From Clostridiales bacterium CCNA10 (GTDB lineage Bacteria > Bacillota > Clostridia > Oscillospirales > Oscillospiraceae), in assembly GCA_003573975.1 (NCBI GenBank), contig AP018533.1:3286319-3350318 (forward strand): DNA of 64,000 nt. The letters are read 5' to 3'. The notes beneath the pieces were generated by a model. That model did not search any database, was not told where the DNA came from, and saw only the letters and a program-made list of their open reading frames with translations. Positions 27,366-37,542 of the stretch are shown here, one piece after another. The first letter of the stretch is position 1, and every line of letters begins with the position of its first letter. The position numbers and the translations under genes are program-made.

Positions 27366-28367
27366 TCAGCTTTCCAGAGTATCCATGGCCGCCTGGGCGT
27401 GGGCCGCAAAAAGCTGCTGGATGGCCTCCAGCTCCCCCAGCCCCTTCAGGACACACTCAACCTCATAGCCGGCATCCTGGAAGGCGCGCTTCCAGGAGCC
27501 CTCCTCGTCGCCGGCCATGTCGTTGTTGGCGTGGTCTCCGGCCACGATCATCAGCGGCTGGAGCACCACTCTGTGCGCCCCGCTGTCCTTCACCCCGGCC
27601 AGCACATCCTCCAGCGTGGGCTCCGCCTCCACGGTCCCCACATAATAGCGGTCGTGCCCAGCCGCCTCTAGCACCTGCTGCATCTCTCCGTAAATGCGGT
27701 TGGACTCCGCCTCGGTCCCGTGGCCCATGAAGCAGATGGCGGTGTCGCCGTCATCGTACTGGGCGGTCGCCTGGGTGATGGCGTCGGCCACCGCCTGGAA
27801 GTCCCCATCACTGGTCAGCAGGGGCGCGCCTACCGCGATATGCTCAAAGGCGTCGGTGTACTGGGCCAGCTCGTCCACCAGGTCCGTGTACTCCAGGCCG
27901 TCCATCAGGTGGGTGGGCTGGACCACCAGCGTTTTGACGCCGTTGTCCACCGCCCGGTCCAGGGCCGCCTTGACATTGTCGATCTCCACGCCGTCCCGCT
28001 CCCGCACCCGGTCAATGATGATCTGGCTGGTGAAGGCCCGGCGGACCGACCAGTCCGGGAAGGCCTCCGCCAGGGCCGTTTCAATGGCGCCGATGGTCAG
28101 GCGGCGGCTGTCGTTGTAGCTGGTGCCGAAGCTGACCACCAGCAGCTCCTTCTCCCCGATCTGGTCCTGATTGCGGGGGTCGTCCAGGCTGGCGTCTCCG
28201 GTGTCCACCTCCTCCGTATCCTGGGAGAGATCCGGGGCCGCGCTGCTTCCGACACCGGACTCGGTCCCACTTCCGGAAGCGGAAGGGGCCCCGGAGCCGC
28301 AGGCGGCCAGCGGGGTCATCAGCAGCGCCGCGGAAAGCAGCAGGGACAGCAGTTTCTTGATTTTCAT
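27366..28367 (-). CDS. cbiK: Lipoprotein CbiK-type sirohydrochlorin cobaltochelatase
   Basis: 333 residues. The signal peptide ends in LAACG (Cys23), so this chelatase is placed outside the membrane, unlike the usual cytoplasmic CbiK. After a Ser/Gly/Asp linker the chelatase fold begins at ELLVVSFGTSYNDSRR. The metal-site histidines are seen in CFMGHGTEAESN and VAGDHANNDM, and QPTHLMDGLEY and QPLMIVAGDH are family hallmarks. CbiK inserts cobalt into sirohydrochlorin for anaerobic B12 synthesis; exported forms, as known in Desulfovibrio, may act in metal or haem handling. It is the first gene after a cobalamin riboswitch. Confidence 0.9.
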   Translation of the reverse strand: MKIKKLLSLLLSAALLMTPLAACGSGAPSASGSGTESGVGSSAAPDLSQDTEEVDTGDASLDDPRNQDQIGEKELLVVSFGTSYNDSRRLTIGAIETALAEAFPDWSVRRAFTSQIIIDRVRERDGVEIDNVKAALDRAVDNGVKTLVVQPTHLMDGLEYTDLVDELAQYTDAFEHIAVGAPLLTSDGDFQAVADAITQATAQYDDGDTAICFMGHGTEAESNRIYGEMQQVLEAAGHDRYYVGTVEAEPTLEDVLAGVKDSGAHRVVLQPLMIVAGDHANNDMAGDEEGSWKRAFQDAGYEVECVLKGLGELEAIQQLFAAHAQAAMDTLES

Positions 28368-28492: not shown

Positions 28493-28554
28493 ACCGAAGC
28501 AGATGGCCGCATCAGTACAATCAATTCCTCGTGATCTGGAAGTCTCTTCCCGTA

Positions 28555-28765
28555 CCCACAGACGGCAGGTCTCCTGGCTCACAGATCCTCACATATCGCC
28601 GCCTTCCCAATTTTCATCAGTGGCCGCACCTTGCGTTGGCGATATACTCCCTGCTTACAGTGACGAGATCGCACAGGTTTTGCACCTGTTTCCCTTTTAA
28701 CCTCCGCCCACAGGATCTGTCTCCAGCTCCCGGGGCGTCGGCACCGGCTGTTTGCCTGATTCAGT
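28555..28765 (-). promoter_or_regulatory. Cobalamin riboswitch
   Basis: On the minus strand the B12-box core GAGCCAGGAGACCTGCC is at plus 28563-28580. Upstream in the RNA come AAAAGGGAAACAGGTGCAAA and CTCGTCACTGTAAGCAGGG, the conserved aptamer blocks in the right order, with the peripheral GGCGG and GCCACTG helices. It precedes cbiK and its transporter genes and should lower their expression when adenosylcobalamin or another cobamide is plentiful. Confidence 0.93.
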
Positions 28766-29099: not shown

Positions 29100-29128
29100 T
29101 TGACAGTTGGGAACTCCAGTGCTAACAT
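29100..29128 (+). promoter_or_regulatory. Promoter of the shikimate operon
   Basis: -35 TTGACA (29100-29105), exactly 17 bases, -10 TAACAT (29123-29128), preceded by AT-rich sequence that could act as an UP element. The start of transcription would be near 29135, about 37 bases before the leader peptide. Confidence 0.88.
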
Positions 29129-29171
29129 AAGACCAACGAACAGAAATTTTCAGGAAAGGAGCCATATCAAC

Positions 29172-29282
29172 ATGAAGCGGTTTGCAGCGTTCTTTTATGG
29201 CTACTTTTACTTTTTCGGCTTTTGGGCGAAACAAGTAAAAGTGTTTTTTGCTGCAAATAATTGGCTCCCCTCTGCTGTATAA
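29172..29282 (+). CDS. Aromatic-amino-acid leader peptide of the shikimate operon
   Basis: 36 codons with ATG at 29172 and AAAGGAG upstream. The sequence begins MKRFAAFFYGYFYFFGFW. In all there are 9 Phe, 3 Tyr and 2 Trp, so 14 of 36 residues are aromatic. The coding stretch lies in an imperfect hairpin: TTTGCAGC (29181-29188) with GCTGCAAA (29250-29257), ACTTTTAC (29203-29210) with GTAAAAGT (29235-29242) and TTTCG with CGAAA inside. A terminator follows 18 bases after the stop codon. Ribosome stalling when charged aromatic tRNAs are scarce would open this hairpin. This is the layout of translation-coupled attenuation, here feeding the gene for the first shikimate enzyme. Confidence 0.88.
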   Translation: MKRFAAFFYGYFYFFGFWAKQVKVFFAANNWLPSAV

Positions 29283-29299
29283 GCGGGATGACTGGATCC

Positions 29300-29342
29300 A
29301 AAGGGCCTGCGGTGAATGACACTTCACCGCGGGCCCTTTTTC
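29300..29342 (+). terminator. Attenuator terminator before aroF
   Basis: AAAGGGCCTGCGGTGAA (29300-29316) pairs with TTCACCGCGGGCCCTTT (about 29323-29339) with one mismatch, followed by TT. It stands between the leader peptide and aroF, where it must be read through for the operon to be expressed. The competing antiterminator is not obvious by eye; GCTGC and GGCTC (29250-29267) have only short wobble pairing to the 5' arm. Confidence 0.88.
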
Positions 29343-29381
29343 ATTCCTGCATATCTGCAGCGGAAAGAAAGGAATGGTAAT

Positions 29382-30398
29382 ATGGTCATCATTGTCAAAC
29401 AGAATACCAAGGAAGAGCGGATCCGGGAGCTGATTCAATGGATCGAGTCCCAAAACCTGCGCACCCACATCTCCACTGGCGATTTTTCCACGGTCATCGG
29501 TGTGATCGGCGACACCAGCAAGCTGGACGAGGACCTGATCAGCGGGCTGGATATTGTAGAGGGGGTCAAACGCGTGTCTGAGCCGTTCAAGAGCGCAAAC
29601 CGGAAGTTCCATCCTCTGGACTCTGTCATTGAGGTCGGGGCGGACAAGATCAAGGTGGGACACGGGAATTTCGCCATCATCGCCGGTCCCTGCTCCGTGG
29701 AGAGCGAGGATCAGATCATCTCCGTGGCCAAAAGCGTCAAGGCCGCCGGAGCCACCATGCTCCGGGGCGGCGCGTTCAAGCCCCGCACCTCCCCCTATGA
29801 CTTCCAGGGACTGAAGGCGGACGGTATTGAGCTGCTGCTGGAGGCCAAGCGGGAGACCGGCCTGCCCATCGTCACTGAAATCATGAACGCCAACCACCTG
29901 CCCCTCTTCGAGGATGTGGATGTGATTCAGGTGGGGGCCCGAAATATGCAGAATTTCGAGCTGCTCAAGGAACTGGGCAAGACCCGCAAACCCATCCTCC
30001 TCAAGCGTGGGCTGGCCAACACCATCAAGGAGCTGCTGATGAGCGCCGAGTACATCATGGCCAGCGGCAACGAAAACGTCATCCTGTGCGAGCGCGGGAT
30101 CCGCACCTTTGAGACGGCCACCCGCAACACCCTGGACCTGTCCGCAGTCCCCGTCCTCCATGAGCTGACCCATCTGCCTGTCATTGTGGACCCCAGCCAC
30201 GCCACCGGCGTGGCCCGCTATGTCAAGCCTATGGCTCTGGCCGCAGCAGCCTGCGGTGCGGACGGCCTGATCATCGAGGTACACAACGATCCCCCCCACG
30301 CCCTGTGCGACGGGGCCCAGTCCCTGCGGCCGGAGCAGTTTGAGGATGTGGCTAAGGCGGTCCGCCGGGTGCAGGCGGCGGCTCTGGCTGAGGATTGA
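29382..30398 (+). CDS. aroF: 3-deoxy-7-phosphoheptulonate (DAHP) synthase
   Basis: 338 residues. Joins phosphoenolpyruvate and erythrose 4-phosphate, the first step of aromatic synthesis. An N-terminal ferredoxin-like regulatory domain (about 1-70) precedes the barrel, which marks the type I-beta subgroup that can be feedback-inhibited through that domain. [23 protein letters not shown] and VDPSHATG are catalytic and metal-site motifs. It is the first structural gene after the aromatic leader. Confidence 0.95.
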
Positions 30399-30415
30399 CA
30401 GGAGGGGTGCTGGAT

Positions 30416-31249
30416 ATGAAGGTCGGCATTGCGGGCCTGGGACTGATCGGTGGTTCCCTGGCCAAGGCATATGAAAAGAGCGGAGCCGCGGTATACGGCT
30501 ATGACGGAAACCGGGTGGTCCAGGATTACGCCAAGCTCCAGGGCACCCTGACCGGAGATCTGGATCGGGAAACGATCGGAGACTGCGACTTGCTTCTGGT
30601 GGCACTGTATCCCCAAGTCTCCATCGACTATCTGAAGGAGATGGCCCCCTATATTTCCAAGGACACCCTGGTCATGGACTGCTGCGGCGTGAAGCGGGAG
30701 GTCTGCCGGGTGGGCTTCGCCCTGGCGGAGAAGCACGGCTTCACCTTTGTGGGCGGCCACCCCATGGCGGGCACCCAGTACTCCGGCTTTGCCAACAGCA
30801 AGGCCGACCTGTTTCAGGGGGCGCCCATGGTGGTCATCCCCAGAGAGCGGGACGACATCCTGCTGCTGGACCGGGTGAAAAAGCTGCTCACCCCCGCCGG
30901 CTTCAGCCATATGACAGTGACCACGGCGGAGCACCACGACGCGATGATCGCGTATACCTCCCAGATGTGCCATGTCCTGTCCAACGCCTATGTAAAAAGC
31001 CCCTGGGCCCAGATGCACAAGGGATACTCCGCCGGGAGCTACCGGGATCTGACCCGGGTGGCCTGGCTGAACGAGACCATGTGGACCGACCTGTTCCTGG
31101 AGAACCGGGATTATCTGCTGGAGGAGCTGGACCGGATGATCGGCTATCTGGGCGAGTACCGGGACGCCCTGGAGCAGGGCAACGGGGACCGGCTGTGCAC
31201 CCTGTTGGCTGAGGGACGGATCTGTAAGGAGAAGGTGGACGCGGAATGA
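30416..31249 (+). CDS. tyrA: Prephenate dehydrogenase
   Basis: 277 residues. NAD(P) is bound by GIAGLGLIGGSLAKAY at the N-terminus; GGHPMAGTQYSG carries the conserved catalytic His region, and TTAEHHDAMIAYTSQ is another family hallmark. It oxidises prephenate to 4-hydroxyphenylpyruvate, the tyrosine branch. There is no C-terminal ACT domain, so it is probably controlled mainly by expression. The ATG at 30416 follows GGAGG and its end overlaps aroB in ATGA. Confidence 0.93.
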   Translation: MKVGIAGLGLIGGSLAKAYEKSGAAVYGYDGNRVVQDYAKLQGTLTGDLDRETIGDCDLLLVALYPQVSIDYLKEMAPYISKDTLVMDCCGVKREVCRVGFALAEKHGFTFVGGHPMAGTQYSGFANSKADLFQGAPMVVIPRERDDILLLDRVKKLLTPAGFSHMTVTTAEHHDAMIAYTSQMCHVLSNAYVKSPWAQMHKGYSAGSYRDLTRVAWLNETMWTDLFLENRDYLLEELDRMIGYLGEYRDALEQGNGDRLCTLLAEGRICKEKVDAE

Positions 31250-32328
31250 AAAAGACGCTGACTGTGGCCCTCCCGGGCCGGGAATATCAAATCGAGATCC
31301 AGCGTGGCCTGCTGGATCAGGCGGGGGAGCGCTGTCGGGCGCTGCTCCCCCGGGCCCGGAAGCTGGCGGTGGTGACCGACAGCAATGTGCTGCCCCTGTA
31401 TCTGGAGCGGACGGCGGACAGCCTGAAGCGGGCGGGCTTTCAGGTCCTCTGCTGCTCCGTCCCCGCCGGAGAGGCGGCCAAGTGTCCAGAACAGCTGGTC
31501 CTGCTGTGGGAAAAAATGATGGCCTTCGGTATGACACGCACTGACGGGGTGGCAGCCCTGGGCGGCGGCGTGGTGGGCGACCTGGCGGGCTTTGCCGCTG
31601 CCACCCTCCTCCGGGGGGTGGACTTCATCCAGATCCCCACCACTCTGCTGGCCCAGGTGGACTCCTCCGTGGGGGGCAAGGTGGCCATCGACCTTCAGGC
31701 CGGAAAAAATCTGGCCGGGGCCTTCTGGCAGCCCAAGGGGGTGCTGATCGATCCGGACTGTCTCAACACCCTCAGCGACCGCGCCTTCTCCGACGGCATG
31801 GCCGAGGTGATCAAATACGGCTGCATCCGGGAACGGGAGTTCTTTGAGCTGCTGGACCGCTGCGGCAGCCGGGCTGGCGTAATGGATTACATTGAGCAGG
31901 TGATCTGCACCTGCTGCGATCTGAAGCGGCAGGTAGTGCTTCAGGACGAGCGGGACACCGGCCTGCGGATGACGCTGAACTTCGGCCACACCATCGGCCA
32001 CGCCTTTGAGCTGGCGGGACACTATGAGACCTGGACCCACGGACAGGGGGTGGCCGCCGGGATGAACTGGGCCGCCCAGCTGGGCGTCGGACTTGGGATC
32101 ACGCCGCCGGAGGTGGTGGAGCAGATCCGCTCCATTTTGAACAAGTTCGGCCTGCCTCAGGACATCCCCTGTCCCTGGGAGACTATGACGGAGGCAGTGG
32201 GCCTGGACAAGAAGCGCACCGGGGATTCCATTACGCTGATCCTGCTGGAGCGGCTGGGCCAGGCGGTGCCGCGGCGCATGAAGAAGGACCAGCTTTTGGA
32301 ACTGCTGGAACCCATGTGCGGGAGATAA
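31246..32328 (+). CDS. aroB: 3-dehydroquinate synthase
   Basis: 360 residues, the second shikimate step, an NAD- and zinc- or cobalt-dependent cyclisation of DAHP. GGGVVGDLAGFAAATLLRGV and PTTLLAQVDSSVGGK are signature segments; the metal-binding residues are in DGMAEVIKYG, LNFGHTIGHAFE and the following HGQGVAAG. Full length for the family. It overlaps tyrA by 4 bases. Confidence 0.97.
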   Translation: MKKTLTVALPGREYQIEIQRGLLDQAGERCRALLPRARKLAVVTDSNVLPLYLERTADSLKRAGFQVLCCSVPAGEAAKCPEQLVLLWEKMMAFGMTRTDGVAALGGGVVGDLAGFAAATLLRGVDFIQIPTTLLAQVDSSVGGKVAIDLQAGKNLAGAFWQPKGVLIDPDCLNTLSDRAFSDGMAEVIKYGCIREREFFELLDRCGSRAGVMDYIEQVICTCCDLKRQVVLQDERDTGLRMTLNFGHTIGHAFELAGHYETWTHGQGVAAGMNWAAQLGVGLGITPPEVVEQIRSILNKFGLPQDIPCPWETMTEAVGLDKKRTGDSITLILLERLGQAVPRRMKKDQLLELLEPMCGR

Positions 32329-32332
32329 CGAT

Positions 32333-33589
32333 ATGGATCTTACCATCTATCCCAGCAAGCTGGCCGGGGAGGTGACCCCGCCGTCCAGCAAGTCCCAGGC
32401 CCACCGGGCGCTCATCGCCGCCGCCCTCGGCGGCGGGATCAGCACCATTTCCAATCTGGCGGACTCACAGGACATCCAGGCCACCCGCCGGTGCCTGTCT
32501 GCCCTGGGGGCTCTGGTGGAGGACCTGGGGCCTGGAACACTCCGGGTCCACGGCCTGGGGAACTCCATCCCCCAGGCGGGACCTTTCCCCACCCTGGACT
32601 GCGGGGAGAGCGGCTCCACGCTGCGGTTTCTCATCCCGGTGGCCCTTCTGGTACAGGGACAGGCCGCCTTCACCGGACGGGGCCGCCTCATGGAGCGCCC
32701 CCTTGCCCCATACGAGGATCTGTTCCGGGGGAAGGGGATCGGCTGGAGCATGGAGCACGGCGTGCTCACCCTGGACTGCGGACGGGGTTATGACCGGCTG
32801 GCTCTGGACCCGGGGGAGTATCGCCTGCCGGGGGATGTGTCCAGTCAGTTTATCACCGGGCTGCTCTTTGCCCTGCCCCTGCTGGAGGGAGACAGCGACC
32901 TGCTTCTCACCGCTCCCCTGGAGTCCCGGGGCTATGTGGATCTGACTCTGGACGTGCTGGACAGGTTCGGGGTCGTCGCAGAGCCCCGGGAGAACGGCTT
33001 CCACATCCCGAGCGGGCAGATGTACCAGGCCAGAGACCTGGCTGTTGAGGCCGACTGGTCCCAGGCCGCCTTCTGGTACGCCGCCAACCACCTGGGCGGT
33101 CAGGTAGACATCCTGGGGATGGATCCAGCCTCCCGGCAGGGGGACCGTGAGATCGCCGCGTACAGCCGTATGCTGGCCCGATCCGGCCAGGTGGAGCTGG
33201 ACGTGTCCCAGTGCCCCGACCTGGCTCCCCCTCTGGCGGCCATGGCCGCTGTGCGCACCGGGACCACCCGCCTCACCAACGCAGCCCGCCTGCGGGCGAA
33301 GGAGAGCGACCGCCTCGCCTCGGTCACCCGGGCCCTCCGGGCCATGGGGGGGCAGGTGGAGGAGTACGCCGATTCCTTGACCATCCACGGGGTGAAGCGT
33401 CTGCCGGGAGGCGGCGTTGTGGACTGCGCCAATGACCACCGCATTGCCATGATGGCGGCGGTCTGCGCCGCCTCTGCGGAGGCTCCGGTGAAGCTGCTGG
33501 GGGCGGAGTGCGTCAGAAAATCCTATCCGGAATTCTGGACCCATTTTCAATCGTTAGGAGGAGAGCTCCATGGCCTCATACTTCGGTAA
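32333..33589 (+). CDS. aroA: 3-phosphoshikimate 1-carboxyvinyltransferase (EPSP synthase)
   Basis: 418 residues with the two-domain fold of the family. SKSQAHRALIAAAL binds shikimate 3-phosphate, DCGESGSTLRFLIP is the first signature, and RLRAKESDRLASV together with DCANDHRIAMM lies in the C-terminal half. It adds enolpyruvate to shikimate 3-phosphate. It overlaps aroC by 20 bases, so translation of the two is coupled. Confidence 0.96.
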   Translation: MDLTIYPSKLAGEVTPPSSKSQAHRALIAAALGGGISTISNLADSQDIQATRRCLSALGALVEDLGPGTLRVHGLGNSIPQAGPFPTLDCGESGSTLRFLIPVALLVQGQAAFTGRGRLMERPLAPYEDLFRGKGIGWSMEHGVLTLDCGRGYDRLALDPGEYRLPGDVSSQFITGLLFALPLLEGDSDLLLTAPLESRGYVDLTLDVLDRFGVVAEPRENGFHIPSGQMYQARDLAVEADWSQAAFWYAANHLGGQVDILGMDPASRQGDREIAAYSRMLARSGQVELDVSQCPDLAPPLAAMAAVRTGTTRLTNAARLRAKESDRLASVTRALRAMGGQVEEYADSLTIHGVKRLPGGGVVDCANDHRIAMMAAVCAASAEAPVKLLGAECVRKSYPEFWTHFQSLGGELHGLILR

Positions 33590-34694
33590 GCACATCCATA
33601 TCTCCATCTTCGGCCAGTCCCACTCGGAGGCCATCGGGGTGACGGTGGACGGCCTTCCCGCCGGGGAGGCCGTGGAGCTGGCGCAGCTTCAGGCGTTTCT
33701 CCGCCGCAGGGCGCCCGGCCGGGACGCAACCTCCACCCCCCGAAAGGAAGGGGACGTCCCCCGGATCCTGTGCGGGCTGGTGGATGGGGTGACCTGCGGC
33801 GCACCCCTGGCCGCCGTCATCGAGAACACAAACACCCGCTCCAAGGACTACGACGAGCTGCGGGACAAGCCCCGCCCGGCTCATGCCGATTTCACCGCCC
33901 ATATCAAGTACGGCGGTTTTCAGGATGTGCGGGGGGGCGGCCATTTCTCCGGCCGGCTCACCGCGCCCCTGTGCATCGCCGGCGGGATCTGCGCCCAGCT
34001 GCTGGCCCGGCGGGGGATCACCGTGGCGGCCCATATCCGCTCCATCGCTCAGGTGGAGGACCGCCCCTTCTCTCCGCTCGGGGAGGCGCGGGACACCCTG
34101 CTGGCGGTGCAGCAAGCCCCCTTCCCCGTTCTGGAGGAAAAGGCCGGAGAGCGGATGCGGGCAGAGATCCTCCGGGCCCGGGAGGCCGGGGACTCGGTGG
34201 GCGGCGTGGTGGAGTGCATAGTCACCGGCCTGCCCGCTGGGGTGGGCAGCCCCATGTTTCAGGGGCTGGAGAGCCATCTGGCCGCCGCCCTGTTTGCCAT
34301 CCCCGCGGTGAAAGGCGTGGAGTTCGGCTCCGGCTTCGGGGCCGCCGGGATGCGGGGCTCTGCGCATAACGACCCCTTCATCCTGGAGGATGGGGCCATC
34401 CGCACCGCCAGCAATCACGCAGGCGGGATCCTGGGCGGGATCTCCAGCGGGATGCCGGTGGTGTTTCGGGCGGCCTTCAAGCCCACACCATCCATCGCGC
34501 AAAAACAGCACACCGTCCGCCTGTCCGCGGGGACAGAGACGGACCTTCAGATCACCGGACGGCACGACCCCTGTATCGTGCCCCGGGCGGTCCCCGTGGT
34601 GGAGGCCGCCGCCGCTCTGGTCCTTCTGGACGCACTGCTGGACCGGAATACAGACCAGATCGCATGGAGCGCGCCCCAGGGTGCGCGGCCTTGA
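33570..34694 (+). CDS. aroC: Chorismate synthase
   Basis: 374 residues. Uses reduced FMN to make chorismate, the branch point of the pathway. HIHISIFGQSHSEAIGVTVD at the start, VRGGGHFSGR in the middle and GSAHNDPFILEDG are conserved active-site and FMN-contact segments. ATG at 33570 follows AGGAGGAG and lies inside the end of aroA. Confidence 0.97.
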   Translation: MASYFGKHIHISIFGQSHSEAIGVTVDGLPAGEAVELAQLQAFLRRRAPGRDATSTPRKEGDVPRILCGLVDGVTCGAPLAAVIENTNTRSKDYDELRDKPRPAHADFTAHIKYGGFQDVRGGGHFSGRLTAPLCIAGGICAQLLARRGITVAAHIRSIAQVEDRPFSPLGEARDTLLAVQQAPFPVLEEKAGERMRAEILRAREAGDSVGGVVECIVTGLPAGVGSPMFQGLESHLAAALFAIPAVKGVEFGSGFGAAGMRGSAHNDPFILEDGAIRTASNHAGGILGGISSGMPVVFRAAFKPTPSIAQKQHTVRLSAGTETDLQITGRHDPCIVPRAVPVVEAAAALVLLDALLDRNTDQIAWSAPQGARP

Positions 34695-34715
34695 ATCGAG
34701 GGAGGAGAAATTGAC

Positions 34716-35867
34716 ATGGATCAGAATTTGACGCAGCTGCGGGATCAGATCGACGGTATCGACCAGAAGCTGGTGGAGCTGTTCAAGCAGCGGATGGCGG
34801 TCTCCCGTGAGGTGGCCGCCTATAAGCAGGAGCACGGCCTGCCCACGCTGGACGCGGGGCGGGAGCGGGCGCTGCTGGCCAAGGTGGGCAGTCTGGCCGG
34901 GGAGGATCTGGCCGACTATACGGAGTCGGTGTTCCGTTCCATCATGGCGGCCAGCCGCTCCTACCAGAAGCAGTGCGAAGGGTCCGGCTCTCCGGTCTAT
35001 GAGGGCATCCGCACCGCGCTGAGTACTACGCCGGACCTCTTTCCCCAGCGGGCCACCGTGGCCTGCCAGGGCATTGAGGGGGCTTATTCCCAGATCGCCT
35101 GCGATAGTATCTTTAAATCCCCCACCATCCTCTATTTTGACACCTTCGACCATGTGTTCAAGGCGGTGGAGAGTGGGATGTGTCAGTACGGCATCCTGCC
35201 CATCGAAAACAGCACTGCCGGTTCGGTCAATGCGACCTATGATTTGATGACCCGTCATAACTTCTCTATCGTCCGTTCCGCCCGGCTGAAGGTGAGCCAC
35301 AACCTGCTGGCAAAGGCCGGGACCGGTCTGCCGGATATCAAAGAGGTATTCTCCCACGAGCAGGCCATCAACCAGTGCTCCGCCTTCCTGAGCGGGCTGA
35401 AGGGGGTCAAGGTGACCGTGGTGCCCAACACCGCCGTTGCCGCCCGCATGGTCTCTCAGTCGGAGCGGCGGGACGTGGCCGCCCTCTCCTCCCGCTTCTG
35501 CGGAAAGACCTACGGCCTGGAGCTGCTGCGCGCCAATGTGCAGAACCGGGACAACAACTATACCCGCTTCATCTGTATCTCCCAAAAGCCGGAGATCTAT
35601 CCCGGGGCCGACCGAACCTCTCTGATGATGACCCTGCCACACAAGCCGGGAGCGCTTTACCACGTTTTATCCAAGTTCTACGCCCTGGGCATCAACCTGC
35701 AAAAGCTGGAGAGCCGCCCCCTCCCGGACCGGGAGTTTGAGTTCATGTTCTACTTCGATCTGGAGTGCTCTGTCTACGCCCCGGAGATGGAGCGGCTGTT
35801 CCGGGATCTGGAGGAGGAGAGCGAGCAGTGCCGCTATCTGGGGACCTATCAGGAGGTCATCTGCTGA
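34716..35867 (+). CDS. pheA: Bifunctional chorismate mutase / prephenate dehydratase
   Basis: 383 residues in three parts. An AroQ-type chorismate mutase (1-88; LRDQIDGIDQKLVELFKQRM) makes prephenate for both branches. Prephenate dehydratase follows (about 108-285; GIEGAYSQIA, LPIENSTAGSV), leading to phenylpyruvate. A C-terminal ACT domain (about 295-383; HKPGALYHVLSKFYALGINL, then ESRP) would sense phenylalanine. With tyrA in the same operon this enzyme's mutase supplies both phenylalanine and tyrosine. Confidence 0.96.
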   Translation: MDQNLTQLRDQIDGIDQKLVELFKQRMAVSREVAAYKQEHGLPTLDAGRERALLAKVGSLAGEDLADYTESVFRSIMAASRSYQKQCEGSGSPVYEGIRTALSTTPDLFPQRATVACQGIEGAYSQIACDSIFKSPTILYFDTFDHVFKAVESGMCQYGILPIENSTAGSVNATYDLMTRHNFSIVRSARLKVSHNLLAKAGTGLPDIKEVFSHEQAINQCSAFLSGLKGVKVTVVPNTAVAARMVSQSERRDVAALSSRFCGKTYGLELLRANVQNRDNNYTRFICISQKPEIYPGADRTSLMMTLPHKPGALYHVLSKFYALGINLQKLESRPLPDREFEFMFYFDLECSVYAPEMERLFRDLEEESEQCRYLGTYQEVIC

Positions 35868-37105
35868 TGGGCCCGAAGGATCTGGAGTTCGGCCTGCTGG
35901 GCGAGCGGCTGGGCCACAGCTTTTCTCCCGCCATCCACCGGCAGCTGGCCGGCTATGACTACCGGCTGGTGGAGCTCCCCCCAGAGGAGGTGGAGCCATT
36001 CCTCCGGGCGGGGCGGTTCCGCGGGCTGAATGTGACCATCCCCTATAAAAAGACGGTGATGGCCTGCTGTGATGCCCTCTCCCCCGCTGCCCGGCGAATT
36101 GGCAGCGTCAACACCCTTCTCCGCCGCCCGGACGGGACTCTCTACGGAGATAACACGGACTACGACGGGTTCCGCTACCTGCTCCAGGCCGCCGGGGCCC
36201 AGGTGCGCGGAAAAAAAGTTCTGGTGCTGGGGTCCGGCGGAGCCTCCCTTACCGTCCATGCGGTGCTGGCCGACCTGGGCGCCCGGGAGACGGTGAGTAT
36301 CTCCCGCAGCGGCCCGGACAACTATGAAAATCTGGACCGCCACGCCGACGCACAGCTTATCGTCAACGCCACTCCCGTGGGAATGTACCCCAACACCGGG
36401 GTGTCTCCGGTGGAGCTGGATCAGTTCCCTGACTGCGAAGGCGTGTTCGATCTGATCTACAACCCTGCCCGCACCCAGCTTCTGCTGGATGCAGAGCGCC
36501 GGGGCCTGTTGTGTTCCAATGGGCTTGGGATGCTGGTGGCTCAGGCCAAGGCTGCGGCGGAGCGCTTCCTGGGCCGGACGATCCCGGACAGCCGGGTGGA
36601 GGAGATCACCCGGCAGGTGGAGGGGCAGACACAGAATCTGCTGCTGATCGGGATGCCGGGCTGCGGCAAGACCACAGTGGGACAGTTCCTGGCAGACCGC
36701 CTGGGCCGCCCCCTGGCCGATGTGGACCATCAGGTGGAAGCGGAGGCCGGCTGCTCCATCCCGGACCTTTTCAAGAAAGAAGGGGAGGAGGGCTTCCGAA
36801 TCCGGGAGCACCGGGCTCTGTGCCAGCTGTCCAAGCAGTCCGGACAGGTCATCGCCTGCGGCGGCGGCATAGTCACCCGCCGTGAGAACTGGGATCCCAT
36901 GCGTCAGAATTCCACAGTGATCTATCTCCGCCGGGACCTGGAGCTGCTTCCCACCAGCGGCCGGCCGGTGTCCCAGGCCATCCCGCCGGAAGAACTGTAC
37001 CGCAGACGGGCCCCGCTCTATGAGGAATTGGCCGATCTGACGGTCGAAAACCGGGGCACGCCGGAGGAGACGGCGGAAGAAATTATCAGGAGGCTTGCGC
37101 TATGA
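35867..37105 (+). CDS. aroE-aroK: Shikimate dehydrogenase-shikimate kinase fusion
   Basis: 412 residues joining two enzymes usually encoded apart. Residues 1-245 are shikimate dehydrogenase: LGHSFSPAIHRQL, NVTIPYKK with the catalytic Lys, NTDYDGF and the nucleotide loop VLGSGGASLTV. Residues 255-412 are shikimate kinase with Walker A GMPGCGKTT near 263, DVDHQVE for metal and shikimate, and CGGGIVTR. The joint is a short linker (RQVEGQTQN) with no stop codon or frameshift. This would pass shikimate directly to the kinase. ATG overlaps the pheA stop in TGATG. Confidence 0.95.
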   Translation: MGPKDLEFGLLGERLGHSFSPAIHRQLAGYDYRLVELPPEEVEPFLRAGRFRGLNVTIPYKKTVMACCDALSPAARRIGSVNTLLRRPDGTLYGDNTDYDGFRYLLQAAGAQVRGKKVLVLGSGGASLTVHAVLADLGARETVSISRSGPDNYENLDRHADAQLIVNATPVGMYPNTGVSPVELDQFPDCEGVFDLIYNPARTQLLLDAERRGLLCSNGLGMLVAQAKAAAERFLGRTIPDSRVEEITRQVEGQTQNLLLIGMPGCGKTTVGQFLADRLGRPLADVDHQVEAEAGCSIPDLFKKEGEEGFRIREHRALCQLSKQSGQVIACGGGIVTRRENWDPMRQNSTVIYLRRDLELLPTSGRPVSQAIPPEELYRRRAPLYEELADLTVENRGTPEETAEEIIRRLAL

Positions 37106-37542
37106 AATTACTTGTGATCAACGGACCCAATCTGAATCTGCTGGGGATCCGGGAGCCCGACATCTATGGCCGGCAGGATTTTTCCGCGCTGGAGGACTTC
37201 ATCCGCGCCTCCGCGGCGGAATTTGGGGTGGAGGTGGAGCTGTTCCAATCCAACTATGAGGGGGCCATTGTGGAGAAGATCCAGGAGGCTTACGGCAAAA
37301 TGGACGGCATCGTCATTAATCCCGCCGCCTACACCCACACCAGCGTTGCCATTCTGGACGCGCTGAAAGCCGTTGCTCTGCCTGCTGTGGAGGTCCACCT
37401 CTCAAACGTCAGCGCCCGGGAACCCTTCCGCCAGATCTCCTATCCCGGCATGGCCTGTGAAAAGCGGTTTATCGGTCTCGGCTTCGAGGGATACCGCCGG
37501 GCCATCTGCCATCTGGCGAAACAGGAGAAAACCGCCTGCTGA
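37102..37542 (+). CDS. aroQ: 3-dehydroquinate dehydratase, type II
   Basis: 146 residues, the small dodecameric class. KLLVINGPNLNLLGIREPDI contains the conserved Asn and Arg, and the catalytic Tyr comes just after, in DIYG. Other signature parts are SNYEGAIVEKIQEAYG, NPAAYTHTSVAI and EVHLSNVSAREPFR. It completes the shikimate steps in the operon. It overlaps the fusion gene by 4 bases and is followed by a terminator. Confidence 0.97.
   Translation: MKLLVINGPNLNLLGIREPDIYGRQDFSALEDFIRASAAEFGVEVELFQSNYEGAIVEKIQEAYGKMDGIVINPAAYTHTSVAILDALKAVALPAVEVHLSNVSAREPFRQISYPGMACEKRFIGLGFEGYRRAICHLAKQEKTAC

Follow-up and report, generated by a model that had tools for sequence, protein, structure and literature searches.

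A candidate leader-peptide attenuator rich in phenylalanine and tyrosine codons before the shikimate operon of a Clostridia-type genome

The operon and its leader region

The window, meaning the whole stretch of 64,000 nucleotides analysed here, carries an operon in the order aroF-tyrA-aroB-aroA-aroC-pheA-aroE/aroK-aroQ (29382-37542), a complete set of genes for the shikimate pathway and for Phe and Tyr. The genes were assigned by matches to protein families as follows.

29382 to 30398, + strand: aroF, DAHP synthase (NF006421, 1.1e-146)
30419 to 31249, + strand: tyrA, prephenate dehydrogenase (best NCBIfam matches are prephenate dehydrogenases, under curated cut-offs)
31246 to 32328, + strand: aroB, 3-dehydroquinate synthase (TIGR01357, 1.5e-106)
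32333 to 33589, + strand: aroA, EPSP synthase (TIGR01356, 2.9e-87)
33570 to 34694, + strand: aroC, chorismate synthase (NF003793, 3.8e-121)
34716 to 35867, + strand: pheA, chorismate mutase/prephenate dehydratase (both matches just under curated cut-offs)
35867 to 37105, + strand: aroE-aroK in one frame, shikimate dehydrogenase then shikimate kinase (matches under curated cut-offs)
37102 to 37542, + strand: aroQ, type II 3-dehydroquinate dehydratase (NF003805, 1.3e-54)

The stretch 35867-37105 encodes an AroE-AroK fusion; its start at 35867 was our choice, and the two matches cover residues 42-282 and 282-446 of a longer frame (35765-37105). The full gene order of the window is kept in 26 of the 59 named loci whose downstream sequence reaches at least 9 kb, aroE and aroK having been searched for separately.

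Between the promoter and aroF lies a leader region with the following features.

29100 to 29128, + strand: sigma-70-type promoter, TTGACA-17-TAACAT, with TG before the second hexamer (promoter scan)
29156 to 29161, + strand: ribosome-binding site AAGGAG of the leader frame (read from the sequence)
29172 to 29282, + strand: leader peptide frame of 36 codons with 9 Phe, 3 Tyr and 2 Trp (translation; kept in relatives)
29181 to 29225, + strand: control-codon run, Phe4 to Trp18, which is also the 5' side of the protector hairpin
29182 to 29256, + strand: protector hairpin, control-codon region with 29227-29256, blocking the antiterminator (folding, covariation)
29239 to 29255, + strand: antiterminator 5' strand within the leader frame, pairing with 29308-29324 (covariation)
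29263 to 29267, + strand: 5' strand of a possible second antiterminator helix, partner 29303-29307 (duplex prediction, pair check)
29308 to 29324, + strand: antiterminator 3' strand, made of the inner terminator 5' arm, the loop and two bases beyond
29300 to 29341, + strand: intrinsic terminator, stem 29300-29339 and U tract 29337-29341 (arm complementarity, folding)

The promoter, the ribosome site, the frame with 14 aromatic codons out of 36, the nested hairpin and the strong terminator before aroF had all been named in an initial annotation of the sequence, and each was found again here. The predicted peptide of the frame is MKRFAAFFYGYFYFFGFWAKQVKVFFAANNWLPSAV, followed by the stop codon. 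Its best stretch has 10 aromatic residues per 12 codons, a density that does not exceed 7 elsewhere in the 64-kb window on either strand and in any frame; ten dinucleotide shuffles of the window reached a maximum of 7, and did so once. The leader RNA (29135-29345) folds at -82 kcal/mol, compared with -54.7 kcal/mol (sd 4.5) in 200 shuffles (z -6.1). The terminator (29300-29339) has arms of 17 nt that are 94% complementary, at about -32 kcal/mol; it is shown by folding and by a search for complementary arms and was passed over by a simple terminator scan, probably because part of the U tract is counted as stem.

Two minor features of the region were also noted. The ribosome site (29158-29164) can pair with 29262-29268 near the end of the leader (GGAGCC/GGCTCC), in only part of the close relatives as judged by eye, and this pairing is possibly a brake on leader translation. 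Upstream, on the minus strand, a cobalamin riboswitch (28547-28763, 105 bits) faces minus-strand genes, a CbiK-like frame (27366-28367) and then transport-type frames, all named by eye.

Alternative folds and their covariation

The antiterminator, which the initial annotation had left as not clear by eye, can now be placed at 29239-29255 with 29308-29324, where 16 of 17 positions pair, four of them as G-U. It takes up the loop and, of the 17 bases in the terminator 5' arm, the inner 9. Most of the close group retain the loop sequence, ACAC, as is expected if the loop belongs to the antiterminator pairing. The second helix (29263-29267 with 29303-29307) appears in duplex prediction and would occupy more of the terminator arm; the minimum-energy fold of the free RNA has a local hairpin in its place.

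Folding with and without the part of the leader that a stalled ribosome would cover, as had been proposed at the outset, revealed another fold, which takes in the terminator arm and covaries (see below). For the stretch that a stalled ribosome would leave free (29222-29326), the minimum-energy fold (-30.1 kcal/mol) contains the antiterminator, while the ribosome-free RNA of the same end (29135-29326) has the protector in its place. Ribosome-free RNA extended to 29343 forms protector and terminator together (-82.0 kcal/mol). Once the terminator is complete, the stalled state (29222-29339) also folds into the terminator (-48.8 kcal/mol), which is more stable than the antiterminator, and antitermination would therefore have to be kinetic, with the antiterminator forming first.

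The locus thus has a predicted leader frame with a run of end-product codons, an intrinsic terminator between the leader and the first gene, and a mutually exclusive antiterminator that folding and covariation place as free when the control codons are covered; at equilibrium the full terminator wins. We consider, with a probability of about 0.9, that the leader is a ribosome-mediated transcription attenuator, with charged tRNA-Phe and tRNA-Tyr as its signals and the whole shikimate/Phe/Tyr operon under its control. The proposal that a complete shikimate operon of a Clostridia-type genome is governed by a leader-peptide attenuator is in this respect upheld by the frame, the folds and the covariation. 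Sequence and comparison show the frame with its control codons, three alternative pairings that covary, and the gene context, whereas we infer that the leader is translated, that the ribosome stalls, that read-through responds and that the antiterminator wins kinetically.

When Phe and Tyr are ample, the ribosome would run through the leader to the stop codon at 29280. Behind it the control-codon region would pair again with 29227-29256, and this hairpin would tie up the antiterminator strand, the terminator (29300-29339) would fold and RNA polymerase would stop before aroF. If either Phe or Tyr runs low, the ribosome would stall on the codons from 29181 to about 29222, open the hairpin and free 29239-29255. 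This strand would pair with 29308-29324 once the latter is transcribed, before the 3' arm of the terminator is complete, and transcription would continue.

Covariation was examined in distant loci, with segments cut by our script, because the alignment of close relatives is too conserved for internal covariation; partners were permuted among loci. Screening of 129 loci gave 12 without a control run of 5, one that was too short, 8 with a run and no terminator, and 108 with both, from which 99 were retained (at least 6 of 12 codons aromatic and a terminator lying 35 to 110 nt beyond the run). Own antiterminator strands paired at a mean of -19.9 kcal/mol, against -13.9 kcal/mol for permuted partners (10,000 permutations, sd 0.32, z -18.6); arms shuffled for composition gave -12.1 kcal/mol. 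The own partner was among the best tenth of the 99 partners in 61 loci and outside it in 38, a few loci (L052, L006, L019) pairing poorly. Both sides of the antiterminator were altered together in L115 (GTGATTTC/GAAATCAC), L126 (GCGATTTA/TAAATCGC), L130 (GGATAA/TTATCC) and L102 (GGTTTGGCC/GGCCAGACC).

Since related loci inflate such a permutation test, it was repeated with one random member per sequence cluster. The input was 215 usable upstream stretches, of which 170 had at least 6 of 12 codons aromatic and 147 a terminator in range; single linkage placed 108 of these 147 loci in one cluster. Over 25 clusters and three draws, with 5,000 permutations each, own pairs gave -17.35 to -17.92 kcal/mol against -11.0 to -11.1 kcal/mol (z -10.5 to -11.4), and in 18 or 19 of the 25 the own partner ranked within the best tenth. 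The protector hairpin covaried likewise (z -11.7 to -12.2 over the same number of clusters and draws). We read this as both pairings, antiterminator and protector, probably being under selection.

Two arrangements of the leader stop were found. In the window the frame crosses the antiterminator strand, and its stop codon starts 24 nt past that strand and 20 nt before the terminator. Among 127 loci with at least 7 of 12 codons aromatic, a terminator and a duplex of -13 kcal/mol or better, so that the counts are conditioned on pairing, 28 have the stop ahead of the strand or right at its start, no more than 15 nt away; in 11 it falls inside the strand, and in 88 it comes beyond it. With the stop after the strand, as in the window, the hairpin would have to re-form behind the ribosome. 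Both arrangements predict termination when Phe and Tyr are plentiful.

Could the frame instead encode a small peptide with a function of its own, such as a membrane peptide, made before aroF and followed by an ordinary terminator? The frame is indeed conserved, hydrophobic and translatable. However, the tail of the peptide varies, and the stretch that is conserved after the run (KVKV[FL]FAAN, KVKAIYAAK) coincides with the antiterminator RNA, its letters changing with the terminator arm; moreover, the frame ends before this stretch in the 28 loci mentioned above, which belong to a set chosen for good pairing. A small functional peptide is therefore hardly credible. Scarcely more can be said for a riboswitch, a T-box or a protein-bound antiterminator that overlaps a frame by chance, a very improbable reading which the strength of the structure (z about -6) would fit. 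The leader stretch gave no match to any Rfam 15 family at gathering scores, permissive E-values bringing only implausible chance matches, although T-boxes were found elsewhere in the genome, and what is conserved is, in our judgement, codons and alternative pairings and not an aptamer-like core. In 20 further loci no Rfam 15 family was matched at the element at gathering scores. A T-box (RF00230) or other Rfam element at the leader was rejected, its covariance model finding no match there.

Distribution across Clostridia and the amino acids read

The leader was followed through relatives by an AroF protein search, in which 80 named genome contigs were kept and which also covered 64 genus, 300 family and 291 class genomes; a further 60 upstream stretches were cut out by their position. 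AroF was matched in 47 of the 64 genus genomes and in 243 of the 300 family genomes. The genus and family loci are the best-scoring 30 of each search and not a random draw; the class sample consists of 60 matches picked down the class list, one of them too short (L199) and two from one genome (G498). Repeats (L001, L002, L031, L041, L050, L063, L099) were excluded from the run, covariation, leader and geometry counts, and L145-L173 entered the cluster, leader and geometry counts while standing outside the genus, family, named and class leader counts.

Leaders with at least 7 of 12 codons aromatic were found before aroF in 26 of 29 genus and 19 of 25 family loci, both best-scoring sets, in 48 of 74 named loci and in 38 of 59 loci of the class sample. 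A terminator behind the run accompanied them in 26 genus, 19 family, 45 named and 34 class-sample loci. The reverse-strand control gave 0/29, 0/25, 3/74 and 3/59, in the same order, and dinucleotide shuffles gave 1 to 3%. The device is absent from some relatives, with fewer than 7 of 12 codons aromatic in 21 of 59 class-sample and 26 of 74 named loci. Its carriers include records that bear no metagenome-bin label, namely Emergencia sp. (L032, where our script found no terminator), Aminicella lysinilytica (L045), Sporobacter termitidis (L063) and Yanshouia hominis (L064). Aromatic leaders with a similar aroF also occur in bins labelled with other phyla (L018 and L023, Treponema; L042 and L077, Lentisphaerae/Oligosphaeraceae), which would reflect horizontal transfer or mis-binning.

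The frame and its aromatic codons are conserved in relatives, as the alignment suggested in the initial annotation was to establish. In the 20 closest loci (AroF identity at least 84%) the aromatic run, both sides of the hairpin and the terminator with its loop are almost invariant, and the peptide tail is variable. Near-invariant segments are TTTGC(A/G)GC, CTTTTACTT and the strand around AGTG(C/T)TTT and CTGC. The promoter was reached by 18 of the 20 close rows, 17 with TTGACA and one with TTGACG, and the -10 context reads TGCTA in 17 and TGATA in one (by eye; an automated pattern caught another site in L087). A ribosome site with at least 4 matching bases precedes all 19 close leaders and 139 of 149 leaders overall, start codons having been chosen with a preference for such a site.

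A covariance model, R1, was built from the 20 close loci and models this close subgroup. It matched 49 of 200 family genomes at E ≤0.01, against AroF in 243 of 300, so that the family is only partly recovered. In the window's genome it finds a single element, the leader described here, plus two weaker reverse-strand matches at the same place, which we take as products of the palindromic stems; an alignment containing such reverse-strand rows was set aside. Among its best 30 hits in the 200 family genomes, 29 lie directly before an AroF gene (places compared by eye). The remaining hit, in one genome (L249, 1501-1621, minus strand), lies before a separate pheA that is itself preceded by an unrelated frame; its leader is MKSNIFAAEFTFFYFGHTR, and its antiterminator has 14 unbroken pairs at -19.3 kcal/mol.

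Of the leaders in which 7 or more of 12 codons are aromatic, 149 in number and some without a detected terminator, every one contains both Phe and Tyr, and 28 contain Trp. Means per leader (31.7 residues) are 5.9 Phe, 4.2 Tyr and 0.22 Trp; the close group has 9.1, 2.7 and 0.26, and 3 of its 19 leaders contain Trp. The families PF00425 (trpE/pabB; anthranilate synthase component I and relatives) and PF00218 (trpC; indole-glycerol-phosphate synthase) gave no match in the window's genome and both matched in 14 of 14 control genomes. The host is thus very likely unable to make Trp, as judged from its genome sequence, and its chorismate would serve Phe and Tyr. PF00425 occurs in 8 of the 64 genus genomes, five of which have a full-length AroF locus. 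Trp is missing from the leaders of four of these (G006, G030, G049 and G053, the last a weak leader with 5 of 12 codons aromatic) and present in G042; conversely, the window's genome and G005 have Trp codons in the leader and no PF00425 match.

The initial annotation had supposed that Trp is read together with Phe and Tyr for the common pathway, and the window leader does hold two Trp codons; a recurring Ser-Trp within the aromatic run of some leaders of distant families, such as YYFYFSWSYFYF in L202, would agree with it. This part of the proposal found no support. The enrichment and conservation of Trp codons that an attenuator for all three amino acids would display were not seen, the rarity of Trp in the leaders (3 of 19 even among close ones), the absence of PF00425 and PF00218 matches from the host and the failure of leader Trp to follow PF00425 within the genus all pointing the other way. 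In addition, the second Trp codon of the window leader comes after the antiterminator strand, and a ribosome stalled on it would presumably fail to free that strand. Sampling of all three amino acids is accordingly quite improbable, and Trp as a third signal of the window leader was rejected. That Phe alone is the signal, the Tyr codons being a by-product of keeping the pairing TACTTTTAC/GTAAAAGT, is unlikely, if less remote: in close leaders Phe exceeds Tyr by the means given above and the Tyr codons sit in the most constrained stem, yet none of the 149 leaders lacks Tyr, Tyr-rich distant leaders have other sequence contexts (for example AAYYYYYFFF in L045), and the operon holds both tyrA and pheA. 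Joint sensing of Phe and Tyr by the attenuator is therefore preferred.

Ser-Trp recurs within the Phe/Tyr run of leaders from distant members of the class (L185, L202, L209, L210, L217, L225, L231), and these may sense Trp, to judge from their codons.

Known systems and the T-boxes of the same genome

Leader-peptide attenuators are well known from the enteric trp, pheA, pheST, his, thr and ilv systems. The present leader resembles them in being short and rich in the regulated amino acids, in its three exclusive pairings (protector, antiterminator and terminator) and in the biosynthetic operon behind it. It differs in that two amino acids are read, in that one operon holds the common pathway and both branches, and in its occurrence in Clostridia. 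It also differs in geometry. In E. coli trp, a ribosome at the leader stop covers the first strand of the antiterminator, whereas the window frame crosses that strand and stops 24 nt after it, so that a ribosome at the stop should leave the strand uncovered; the arrangement of the 28 loci with an early stop is trp-like.

In Firmicutes, the control of aromatic amino-acid genes has mostly been described through T-boxes and TRAP. The contrast drawn on this ground between T-boxes and leader peptides holds in part, as the genome appears to use both, with a T-box match before pheS. Amino-acid-specific attenuation by leader peptides has been reported in Firmicutes for other amino acids and genes, namely in a His leader before hisS/hisZ of bacilli (PMC2965389) and in a Leu-rich attenuator of Staphylococcus aureus (PMC5794164).

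Upstream frames of the present kind are already in print. Two candidate uORFs encoding Phe and Tyr before shikimate metabolism genes were described in an analysis of five genomes, Clostridium novyi NT among them (PMC6429828). Like the window leader, they are Phe/Tyr frames before shikimate genes, and they may be members of the same family; the sections of that paper drawn on here mention no antiterminator, no taxonomic range and not which of the five genomes carries the uORFs. The motif uORFC-13-1 combines a Phe-coding frame before aroF (at least one Phe) with an intrinsic terminator, and attenuation was proposed for it; its 24 representatives come from Acholeplasma and environmental sequences only (PMC8632094). 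The section on it names another base-paired substructure and neither a Tyr run nor an antiterminator. No prior account of the antiterminator, its covariation, the range in Clostridia or the exclusion of Trp was found in the passages of the literature consulted, and an earlier report is possible.

The principle is therefore known, and the device is widespread in Clostridia. What is offered is a leader-peptide attenuator over much of a class, with strong covariation of the antiterminator and no Rfam family in 21 loci scanned; it allows many genomes to be annotated directly and predicts clearly which starvation switches the pathway on. It is probable that the shikimate operon is controlled across Clostridia mainly by an uncatalogued, class-wide family of Phe/Tyr attenuators, that this family comes in two geometries and follows pathway genes which have become separated (pheA in L249), and that it works beside T-boxes which, within one cell, serve Phe-tRNA synthetase and the import of Trp.

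T-box leaders sense tRNA charging and act on a terminator as well, binding the tRNA directly, without translation. The window's genome has T-box (RF00230) matches at 13 places, five of them above the family cut-off, while the leader before aroF has none. A match with UUC at the specifier place precedes pheS (L144, 1501-1708, minus strand), and another with UGG there precedes a TrpX-like transporter gene (L142, 1501-1758, plus strand), the TrpX match itself being under its curated cut-off. These two reach 81 and 92 bits, respectively, the second just below and both under the Rfam cut-off of 93, and their specifiers were read by eye from the alignments. From these sequences, leader peptide and T-box appear to divide the aromatic amino acids within one cell, which suggests that both kinds of leader share this group of amino acids in a single genome.
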